From contig QMPA01000008.1 of NCBI GenBank assembly GCA_003650365.1, forward strand, positions 1 to 38,010: a stretch of 38,010 nt of DNA, written 5' to 3'. The notes beneath the pieces were generated by a model. It was not told where the DNA came from, searched no databases, and worked only from the letters and a program-made list of their open reading frames with translations. The DNA comes from Bacteroidota bacterium (GTDB lineage Bacteria; Bacteroidota; Bacteroidia; Bacteroidales; F082). Position numbers and translations under genes: made by a program. Shown piece by piece: positions 19,071 to 22,481 of this stretch (position 1 is the first letter of the stretch; each line of letters opens with the position of its first letter).

Positions 19071-19099
19071 TTTGTGAATAGTGCTTTTTCGTATTTTTG
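19071..19099 (+). promoter_or_regulatory. Bacteroidota-type promoter for the outer-membrane protein gene
   Basis: TTTG at 19071-19074 and TATTTTTG at 19092-19099, 17 nt apart, match the -33/-7 pattern. Transcription would start near 19105, giving a leader of about 110 nt before the GTG at 19219. An in-frame GTG at 19081 lies inside this promoter and so is not the start. Confidence 0.65.
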
Positions 19100-19218
19100 C
19101 TGCCCCTCCAATACGAGGTATATTGACAACATTTCAAGTAAATAATATCGACTCCGGTACACAAGCTTGCCCAACAGACTTGAGGCAGGGAAAAACAGAA
19201 CTTAAACAAGTTAAGGTG

Positions 19219-19989
19219 GTGAAAAAAATTATACTTGCTCTTGTCATTCAGTTCATTGTGATTGGTTTATCTGCTCAGAAATTTGAGATGAGAGTTAATG
19301 CAAGCGCGAACCTTACTTTTGTGCCCGATTATGCAGACTTGGTTTTAATTGCAAATGACGGATTAATAGTACCTGGTTTAATCGTTCCCGGCAACAGCCT
19401 CACCCCCATTATTCATACTGAAACTATTGCTGAAACAACGGCCAAATTTGGTTTTGTTGCTGATTTGGAGATTCGGATGAAAGTTTGTGATAATTGCAGT
19501 TTGTCATTGGCTGCCGGAATTGCAAGAATGAATTATAAGTATGATAACTATGTTGCTGCCGAAGGAACACCAATTGTAAGGCTGAGTGAGCTGGATAATG
19601 ATTTTGGGATTACAAAGCTGCTCTATTTGAATGTGAGGCCATTGAATTTTAGCATTGATTTGTTTGACAACAAACTCACACTACAGGGCGGAGCAACTTT
19701 TAACTTTTTCCTGAAAGGCGAAAGTAACAGTACTGTAATCCTCTATGCAGAGCCGGTTACTGGTGGTACTGAAAGTGAAATTGAAAAAGTTTATTTTAGC
19801 ACAAACGGCAAAGCAAATAGTGTATTGTATGGTGTCCATTTACGGGTTGAGTTCAATATTATAAAGGCTTTGGATTTATTTTTATCAAGCCAGTATTATT
19901 TCAATTCAATTTACAGTGGTGAAGAACAAAAAGCAGCCAAGCCAACAACTATTCAGATGGGAATGAGTTATACTTTTTGGCGATTTTAA
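19219..19989 (+). CDS. Putative outer-membrane beta-barrel protein
   Basis: This 256-residue protein has a signal peptide (KKIILALVIQFIVIGLSAQ) ending in the AQ common for this phylum. The rest is alternating beta-strand sequence, ending with an aromatic final strand (MGMSYTFWRF) as expected for insertion by the BAM complex. I do not recognise a specific family. The start is taken at GTG 19219 because the signal peptide follows at once; upstream in-frame codons lie in the promoter or leader. A short internal duplication, GLIVPGLIVPGN, occurs near residue 40. It stands alone between the rplM operon and gldA. Function unknown; structural or small-molecule pore roles are both possible. Confidence 0.75.
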   Translation: MKKIILALVIQFIVIGLSAQKFEMRVNASANLTFVPDYADLVLIANDGLIVPGLIVPGNSLTPIIHTETIAETTAKFGFVADLEIRMKVCDNCSLSLAAGIARMNYKYDNYVAAEGTPIVRLSELDNDFGITKLLYLNVRPLNFSIDLFDNKLTLQGGATFNFFLKGESNSTVILYAEPVTGGTESEIEKVYFSTNGKANSVLYGVHLRVEFNIIKALDLFLSSQYYFNSIYSGEEQKAAKPTTIQMGMSYTFWRF

Positions 19990-20970: not shown

Positions 20971-20993
20971 TTACTTGTTGGGTTTTTCTTTAA

Positions 20994-21054
20994 TGCTCCA
21001 CTGACTTTGAACTTCAAACTTTAGACATTAAACTTTAAACCTTCAAACTTTTTT
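20994..21054. repeat. Degenerate low-complexity repeat upstream of metK promoter
   Basis: The segment contains imperfect repeats of a CTTtgAACTTcAAACTTTa-like unit (CTTTGAACTTCAAACTTTAG, then ACATTAAACTTTAAACCTTC), just after gldA. It resembles in style, though not in unit, the tracts after murG, ftsQ and before gldB. Confidence 0.6.
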
Positions 21055-21074
21055 CTTCATTTCAAAGAATTATT

Positions 21075-21082
21075 TACATTTG
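21075..21082 (+). promoter_or_regulatory. -7 element of the metK promoter
   Basis: TACATTTG is an exact TAnnTTTG match. Transcription would begin about 7 bp later, near 21089, just upstream of the putative riboswitch and about 140 nt before the metK ATG. No clear -33 TTTG is seen. Confidence 0.6.
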
Positions 21083-21105
21083 CGCCTCCGTTTATAAAAC
21101 GGGTT

Positions 21106-21182
21106 TTGTGGAAGGATTTGATTGCTTGCAACCACGCTAAAAAAATGCTAAAACAATTTTAGCCCGCCCGACAATCAAATCA
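21106..21182 (+). ncRNA. SAM-II-class riboswitch in the metK leader
   Basis: The leader matches the SAM-II pseudoknot layout element by element. P1 is GTGG (21108-21111) with CCAC (21132-21135). GATTTG (21115-21120) corresponds to the conserved GAUUU segment in the loop. P2 is ATTG (21121-21124) with CAAT (21154-21157). CTTGCAA (21125-21131) matches the usual UUGCAA stretch, and TGCTAAAA (21146-21153) the conserved GCUAAA that contacts SAM. Two alternative pairings are visible: GCTAAAA/TTTTAGC (21147-21153 with 21157-21163), and ATTTGATTG/CAATCAAAT (21116-21124 with 21172-21180). Both would break the pseudoknot, so they could form the expression platform. No T-run follows, so control of translation is more likely than termination. 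The next gene makes SAM, which fits feedback control. Confidence 0.8.
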
Positions 21183-21227
21183 TTCCTGCTTAAATTAGTG
21201 TATTAAAAACAATAAAATTGTAAGACT

Positions 21228-22481
21228 ATGTCCTATTTATTTACTTCAGAATCTGTTTCAGAAGGCCATCCAGATAAGGTAGCCGACCAGATTTCTGACG
21301 CTATGCTTGATTACTTTCTGGCATTTGACAAAAATTCGAAAGTTGCAGTAGAAACAATGGTCACAACTGGTCAGGTAATTGTTGCCGGCGAAGTGTACTC
21401 AAAAACTTATGTTGATGTGCATGCGGTAACACGAAAAGTCATCAATGATATTGGCTACACAAAAAGCGAGTATATGTTCGAAGGAAATTCCTGTGGAATC
21501 CTTTCCGCCATTCACGAACAATCGACTGACATCCGCCAGGGCGTTGACCGCTCTGACCTCGACCAGCAAGGCGCCGGTGACCAAGGAATGATGTTTGGCT
21601 ATGCTTGCCGCGAAACAGCCAATTATATGCCTTTGCCGGTGGAACTGTCGCATCTGTTGGTTTACGAAATGGCGCAAATTCGGAAAGAAGGCAAAGAAAT
21701 GCTTTACTTGCGTCCCGATTCGAAATCACAGGTAACTGTTGAATACGATAACGATAACAAACCCATTCGCATTGATACTATTGTTGTTTCTACACAACAT
21801 GATGATTTTGCAGACGAAAAACAAATGCAGGAAACCATTAAGAAAGATGTGATTTCCATTCTCATTCCACGAATTTTAAAACAACTTCCTGAAAATATCA
21901 GGGCAATGTTCAATAACCAGATTACCTACCACGTGAACCCAACAGGTAAATTTGTGATTGGTGGCCCACATGGTGATACCGGACTTACAGGAAGAAAAAT
22001 TATTGTTGATACTTATGGTGGAAAAGGTGCGCATGGTGGTGGTGCTTTCTCTGGAAAAGATCCCTCGAAAGTTGACCGTTCGGCTGCTTACGCCTCACGG
22101 CACATTGCCAAAAATTTGGTAGCTGCTGGTGTAGCCAACGAAGTACTCGTACAGGTTTCTTACGCCATTGGTGTGGCCAAACCCATGAATATTTTCGTTA
22201 ATACTTATGGCACAAGCAGTGTTGATTTGACTGATACTCAAATCGCTGAAAAAGTTGATGAAATATTTGACATGCGCCCGGCAGCCATCGAACAACGCTT
22301 GAAGCTTCGCAACCCCATTTATTTAGAAACTGCTGCTTACGGACATATGGGCCGCGAGCCAAAAGTCGTAATGAAACACTTTAAATCGGATTACCTTGAT
22401 GACAAGGAGATAGAAGTTGAATTGTTTACCTGGGAAAAACTGGATTATACAGATAAGGTGAAAGCTGCTTTTGGTTTATAA
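21228..22481 (+). CDS. metK: S-adenosylmethionine synthetase
   Basis: MetK makes SAM from methionine and ATP. The 417 residues carry the family signatures: [18 protein letters not shown] (H14 in the ATP site), the G115-AGDQG-120 hexapeptide with MMFGYA, and the glycine-rich [18 protein letters not shown] loop with the catalytic lysine and phosphate contacts. The length is slightly above E. coli MetK (384), with extra residues in the middle (for example after [13 protein letters not shown]). It is monocistronic by appearance: its own promoter and SAM-II-like leader come before it and a strong bidirectional terminator after. The SAM product also serves RsmH in this window. Confidence 0.97.

Follow-up and report, generated by a model that had tools for sequence, protein, structure and literature searches.

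Aptamer-complementary strands downstream of SAM-II long-loop riboswitches in Bacteroidota metK leaders: a candidate strand-competition switch

The metK leader in the 38,010-nt stretch of Bacteroidota DNA analyzed here (the window) contains a SAM-II long-loop aptamer followed by a strand complementary, at 14 of 15 positions, to the part of the aptamer that runs from the end of P1 through L1 into the 5' strand of the pseudoknot helix P2. This competing helix is conserved in Bacteroidales and Flavobacteriales, and competition between the two strands is very probably the switch. How riboswitches act on expression in Bacteroidota is poorly defined, since to our knowledge their leaders largely lack Shine-Dalgarno pairing. 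A conserved competitor, with no terminator and a start codon that is hardly affected, is a concrete and testable answer for metK; it suggests a route to switching this gene without ribosome-binding or terminator signals, and gives a way to search for like platforms on other aptamers.

Both the aptamer and the gene it precedes are already known. The competitor strand and expression platform appear to be new: no description of either for Bacteroidota SAM-II was found in main text among the open PMC papers listed by the searches (the SAM-II details of PMC2864571 are in its Additional file 1), and the term “SAM-II” is absent from the main text of a Bacteroides RNA-seq study (PMC12121620).

The aptamer and its gene

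A cmscan search gave a match to RF01726 (SAM-II long loop) with a score of 69.4 bits (E 1.5e-11; gathering score 44), covering model positions 1-60, the whole of the model. It is the single RF01726 match in the source genome, which is 94.5% complete. By family membership, this is almost certainly a SAM-sensing RNA. An earlier note on this DNA had proposed a SAM-II-type riboswitch ahead of the SAM synthetase gene, with P1, GATTTG, P2, CTTGCAA and GCTAAAA in order; all of these are in place, and the next gene is metK (Table 1). The Rfam model it had named was the wrong one: the alphaproteobacterial SAM-II family (RF00521) scores 17.9 bits here, with a cut-off of 36.

Table 1. Features of the metK leader, in window coordinates; all are on the forward strand.
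Feature	Position	Strand	Evidence
Bacteroidota -7 promoter box TACATTTG (TAnnTTTG)	21075-21082	+	sequence and consensus
5'-terminal hairpin TCCGTTT ATA AAACGGG	21087-21103	+	terminator scan and leader fold
SAM-II (long loop) riboswitch aptamer	21102-21161	+	RF01726, 69.4 bits
P1 5' strand GTGG, pairs with 21132-21135	21108-21111	+	RF01726 match and covariation
Competitor target GGAAGGATTTGATTG (P1 5' strand end, GATTTG, P2b 5' strand)	21110-21124	+	14/15 pairs with 21172-21186
GATTTG motif (L1)	21115-21120	+	sequence
Pseudoknot P2b 5' strand ATTG, pairs with 21154-21157	21121-21124	+	covariation at one variable pair
TTGCAA motif	21126-21131	+	sequence
P1 3' strand CCAC	21132-21135	+	RF01726 match and covariation
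Conserved GCTAAAA, presumed P2a side of SAM pocket	21147-21153	+	sequence
Pseudoknot P2b 3' strand CAAT	21154-21157	+	covariation
TTTTAGC, pairs with GCTAAAA at 21147-21153 or its second copy at 21136-21142	21157-21163	+	sequence, shuffles, fold
C-rich, G-poor stretch (set-wide), proposed Rho-loading (rut-like) segment with SAM bound	21161-21197	+	composition; role of Rho proposed
Anti-aptamer (competitor) strand CAATCAAATCATTCC	21172-21186	+	window p 0.0008; complementarity conserved across 201 leaders
metK, methionine adenosyltransferase (S-adenosylmethionine synthetase)	21228-22481	+	TIGR01034, 513.4 bits, cut-off 309.4

Covariation among 201 non-redundant metK leaders (described below) supports P1 and one pair of P2b. 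At the third P1 position, 196 of the 201 have a standard pair (TA 158, AT 33, GC 3, CG 2), with a shuffled maximum of 150; at the P2b pair t-4:g+9, 146 do (TA 71 and CG 60 among them), with a shuffled maximum of 126. Pairing at the four other P2b pairs examined was not above shuffles. In all 201 leaders the G and C of GCTAAAA pair with the C and G of TTGC, which is no test, because leaders were picked by those motifs. The window has two copies of GCTAAAA in its aptamer tail, at 21136-21142 and 21147-21153; the second copy is the one we take to be part of the SAM pocket. A variant with a larger loop is found in three metK leaders (L136, L267, and L269), where a hairpin-like insertion in L1 lies between GATTTG and TTGCAACCAC.

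Upstream of the aptamer is a sequence fitting the Bacteroidota -7 box, for which PMC9723704 gives the consensus TAnnTTTG and the place -12 to -5. Transcription would on this basis probably start near 21087, about 20 nt ahead of P1. A TAnnTTTG box lies no more than 48 nt upstream of P1 in 183/201 leaders vs. 5% of shuffles. The transcript so predicted would begin with a 7-bp hairpin, with TTTT directly after it, which could perhaps have a role in 5' protection. Farther upstream, a 302-amino-acid ORF (19081-19986, forward strand) is located between the gene for ribosomal protein L13 and gldA; it had no Pfam or NCBIfam match at E 0.001.

Distribution of the aptamer

A SAM-II aptamer ahead of metK is ordinary in Bacteroidota, and already known. 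RF01726 was found in 3/3 genomes of the genus, 131/149 of the family, 172/247 of the order, and 38/247 of a sample of the phylum, the searches of sets of more than 40 genomes being done with stricter filters that lose weak matches. Among the 211 matches that were retrieved as loci (not all those in the preceding counts), 210 are ahead of metK: 205 of these could be parsed as metK leaders, and the other five have variant cores. The remaining one is ahead of metH. Among the named Bacteroidota metK loci, RF01726 was over the cut-off in 55 of 80 (17, 13, 13, and 12 per 20). By title, the 25 without it include a Prevotellaceae (L072) and a Flavobacteriales (L101) genome; Cytophagales, Chitinophagales, and Saprospiraceae are presumably also among them, the orders having been taken in part from genus names. 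The earlier note considered the use of SAM-II on metK in this phylum to be notable, which these counts and the literature both speak against: “SAM-II long loops” are given for Bacteroidetes and marine samples in Table 1 of a 2010 paper (PMC2864571), and Bacteroides thetaiotaomicron is named in connection with SAM-II in one from 2005 (PMC1273637).

Some individual loci have less usual arrangements. The sole non-metK target among the 211 is metH (methionine synthase, TIGR02082; L292 1-2461, the same place as L187), with a CAATCA downstream of the aptamer; the same genome (G472) has a second match ahead of metK (L293). Another genome (G107) has two matches, at C16:6523 and C41:46545, both ahead of metK (L006 and L296); metK may be duplicated there, or the assembly mixed. 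On nine of the 80 named contig stretches (L039, L048, L055, L064, L075, L080, L082, L108, and L111), a SAM-I riboswitch (RF00162) is found in addition to the metK SAM-II; a 2007 survey reports no species with both classes (PMC2258182).

The competitor strand

In the window, the competing helix consists of 10 contiguous pairs (21115-21124 with 21172-21181), one mismatch (21114/21182), and four further pairs (21110-21113 with 21183-21186). The earlier note had described it as a 9-bp helix (21116-21124/21172-21180); it is real, competing, and conserved, but its extent was understated. Compared to 5000 dinucleotide shuffles, its stem score has a p of 0.0008 and its duplex energy a p of 0.0086. It is also the core of the minimum-free-energy fold of 21087-21227, which at -28.5 kcal/mol (z -2.34) was equalled by one of 200 shuffles. 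Because the helix ties up L1, the P2 5' strand, and the terminal part of P1, it would be expected to exclude the SAM-bound pseudoknot. In two sister genomes (L002, CAATCAGTATTTTTCCC; L003, CAATCAACTTTTTCC) the middle of the strand has drifted and both ends are retained.

The comparison set was assembled from 291 loci. In thirty of these, a metK leader with an aptamer core could not be parsed: 24 belong to the 80 named loci, and the other six are RF01726 loci (the five with variant cores and the metH locus). Of the 261 left, three were dropped, and 57 of the remaining 258 were removed for redundancy, for a final 201. The motif pattern used for parsing counted 56 of the 80 named loci as having an aptamer, compared to 55 by Rfam: it missed L040, and took in L053, which is below the Rfam cut-off, and L061, which has no match and was dropped from the 201 set. 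GCTAA is found 21 nt after the core in three leaders. For each leader, the stretch between aptamer and start codon (D) was compared with that leader's own P1/L1/P2 5' strand (T1).

Over the 201 leaders, the T1 x D duplex energy is -16.10 kcal/mol with the leader's own strand, vs. -11.56 for dinucleotide-shuffled D (p 1.1e-32) and -13.58 for T1 from other leaders (p 4.9e-24). With composition subtracted, the excess is -4.50 for own and -2.20 for swapped strands (p 1.5e-25), the own strand being the stronger in 171/201. A stringent subset of 29 mutually unlike leaders gave -5.12 vs. -2.53 (p 3.7e-8), with 16/29 individually at p<=0.05, and for these reversing D weakens the duplex from -17.9 to -12.2. 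In the same 201 leaders, D showed no such signal toward four other segments: one upstream, toward the 5' end (p 0.12); the codons of metK (p 0.21); the 3' strand of P2 (p 0.42); and the segment after P1 (p 0.85).

Taken singly (40 shuffles each), 96/201 leaders reach p<=0.05. By group, the counts are 20/29 in Flavobacteriales, 10/24 in Bacteroidales, and 0/1 in Sphingobacteriaceae, where groups were assigned by title or kinship and the named Flavobacteriales and Bacteroidales were picked from among loci with an apparent aptamer. Within the family of the window genome, 31/53 do so, in a set that was not thinned for redundancy. The competitor strand ends 41 nt before the ATG in the window, and at a median of 33 nt (interquartile range 28-39) in the 68 leaders with p<=0.1.

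A word count made blind to the aptamer points the same way. The most enriched 6-mer of D relative to shuffles is CAATCA (55 leaders, 5.3 expected), the second GCAATC (21, 2.7 expected), and the seventh CTTTCC (29, 8.2 expected); these are the complements of the aptamer words TGATTG, GATTGC, and GGAAAG. Other enriched words (GCCAAT, CTTTAG, and CCTGCC) are aptamer complements in part or not at all. Of 61 leaders with TGATTG, 42 have CAATCA in D, with 6.5 expected from the other 140. A few other loop words also come with their complement, in small numbers. CTACTC accompanies GAGTAG loops in 3/7 cases (0.11 expected), CAACTC accompanies GAGTTG in 2/5 (0 expected), and TTCACA accompanies TGTGAA in 2/2 (0.03 expected). 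Exact complements are scarce or lacking for several of the common loop words (TGACTG 4/34, TGGCTG 1/18, GAACTG 0/13, GTATTG 0/7), and the P1-proximal word has no leader-specific signal (26/201, with a permuted mean of 19.3 and maximum of 30).

The complementarity could conceivably be a by-product of composition or descent, without function, with the aptamer acting alone. A G-rich T1 and a C-rich D would be expected to pair to some degree, and 105/201 leaders miss individual significance. This explanation is nevertheless very unlikely: the dinucleotide shuffles, the swapped T1, the reversed D, and the stringent subset all oppose it, as does the complementarity to the aptamer of the first two enriched 6-mers, although shuffles and strand swaps are not a full model of descent or phylogeny.

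Other alternative pairings

The earlier note paired the competing helix with a second, 7-bp one (21147-21163) in a two-helix switch model. Both are present in the window, but they are unequal. GCTAAAA and TTTTAGC do form an exact 7-bp hairpin here; TTTTAGC appears within the first 30 nt of the tail in 0.36% of 5000 dinucleotide shuffles, and the leader fold pairs it with the first GCTAAAA copy. Among the 201 leaders, a rightly placed TTTAGC is found in 22 (3.2 expected), and pairing of this kind is slightly above shuffles (p 0.0013) but has a p of 0.70 relative to swapped strands: it is not leader-specific, and was rejected as a general feature. A further alternative helix behind P1 was likewise rejected, with no signal when D was taken from g+16 and a weak one from g+11 (p 0.016, 0.0039).

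Expression platform

The earlier note expected an unusual expression platform, and the leader bears this out. Ordinary intrinsic termination has a precedent in the putative terminators after some alphaproteobacterial SAM-II RNAs (PMC1273637). In a scan of 20980-21500, however, no terminator-like site lies behind the aptamer, the sole match being the 5' hairpin; and from the aptamer to ATG+40, a stem of at least six pairs, at least four of them G-C, followed by a T-run was found in 0/201 leaders, a count of little power because the shuffled expectation under this strict definition is also 0.0. Intrinsic termination is highly improbable as the output.

D is biased in composition. Its C content is 0.29 and its G content 0.11, with C exceeding G in 96% of leaders; this is partly forced, because the complement of T1 is itself 0.285 C and 0.107 G. 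For 247 background intergenic stretches the corresponding values are 0.159 and 0.168, with C exceeding G in 43%. The bias is present outside the best stem as well (C 0.285, G 0.121; n=180). Among the named metK leaders, 21 that lack an RF01726 match are near background (C-G 0.035); they come from the 24 named loci that could not be parsed, with L040 and L042, which have a visible aptamer, and L072 left out.

In predicted foldings of the 201 leaders, the unpaired fraction of D is 0.344 with the aptamer free to pair and 0.557 once the aptamer is made unavailable. It rises by more than 0.1 in 149 leaders and falls by that much in none; the rise is 0.213 for real D and 0.100 for shuffled D. These foldings contain neither the pseudoknot nor SAM. 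The 30 nt before the start codon (ATG-30 to -1) are unaffected by the same change (0.523/0.524), and accessibility from ATG-15 to +15 drops by 0.016 with the aptamer locked (p 0.012).

Start-codon accessibility is thus nearly constant, and this bears on a translational reading, in which the two structures would alter ribosome recruitment, for example at an S1 or standby site before the start codon, with the start codon itself not hidden. Shine-Dalgarno pairing is largely lacking in Bacteroidota leaders, and the accessibility of an AU-rich leader may therefore matter; the competitor ends near enough to the ATG for a standby site, and the small drop around the start codon has the needed sign. 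That drop is very small, however, with none over the preceding 30 nt, and D is not complementary to the metK start. Moreover, the main effect of SAM, opening of the stretch, should favor ribosomes, which is opposite to the sign that feedback requires. Translational control is on balance rather unlikely.

Proposed mechanism

The model we propose is feedback control of metK by the SAM-II long-loop riboswitch through strand competition. In the SAM-free RNA, the 5' strand of P2 and L1 would be exposed, and a strand about 30 nt after GCTAA (in the window, the competitor strand) would pair with L1, the P2 5' strand, and P1. Aptamer and downstream stretch would then form one long hairpin, and RNA polymerase would continue into metK. 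With SAM, the pseudoknot would close over L1 and P2 and release the competitor strand, leaving some 40 nt of C-rich, G-poor sequence open between aptamer and start codon; Rho could load there and end transcription before ribosomes cover metK. The computations above give the aptamer class, its gene, a competing helix with complementarity specific to each leader, the base composition, and a predicted shift in accessibility; repression of metK by SAM, the direction of the switch in the cell, and the reading of the open stretch by Rho are inferred.

For the first part of the model there is a parallel in a metX SAM-II RNA, in which P1 is protected whether or not ligand is present, whereas P2 and L1 become protected with SAM and are otherwise exposed (reviewed in PMC10907184). 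If the metK aptamer is gated similarly, a strand invading L1/P2 would read SAM occupancy directly.

The choice of Rho as output draws on composition, on the sign of the predicted change, and on the absence of other signals; a rho gene is present in the genome (634 bits). A C-rich, G-poor exposed stretch, as in a Rho-controlled riboswitch, is found here in composition and predicted folding, with the OFF state itself a proposal. If SAM represses metK, Rho loading fits better than a start-codon effect, because the main event on SAM binding would be the opening of the C-rich stretch. The predicted opening of D would fit equally well with control of mRNA stability, in which SAM binding would expose a C/U-rich stretch to an endonuclease; the bias of C over G, however, favors Rho over a nuclease with a preference for A/U, and this alternative is distinctly unlikely. 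Rho remains a tentative assignment, judged a shade short of an even chance, and strand competition together with a Rho output, the model as a whole, an evenly balanced proposition. In its most specific form, the proposal is that metK SAM-II leaders of Bacteroidales and Flavobacteriales combine a coevolving competitor, for which L1/P2 serves as a SAM-gated toehold, with a C-rich Rho window opened by SAM, and use no Shine-Dalgarno sequence, terminator, or start-codon masking; this full combination is possible, and put forward with some reserve.

Comparison with known systems

The alphaproteobacterial SAM-II riboswitches (RF00521), found with metA, metX, and metZ, share the pseudoknot plan and core motifs, although the window falls below the cut-off of that model. 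They are described as using either a terminator or a ribosome-binding site located in P2 (PMC1273637, PMC10907184, PMC9373788), neither of which was seen in the window leader. From RF01726 the aptamer differs in nothing: the whole aptamer, a SAM-cycle gene downstream, and the occurrence in Bacteroidota are the same, with the competitor strand of the window falling outside the 60-position Rfam model.

For the output, the closest likeness is to Rho-controlled riboswitches such as the E. coli ribB FMN and Salmonella mgtA Mg2+ riboswitches, in which the ligand exposes a C-rich stretch of the leader. Exposure of such a stretch by ligand is what is proposed for metK; the aptamer and the phylum are different, and here dependence on Rho is predicted from leader composition and the presence of the rho gene.
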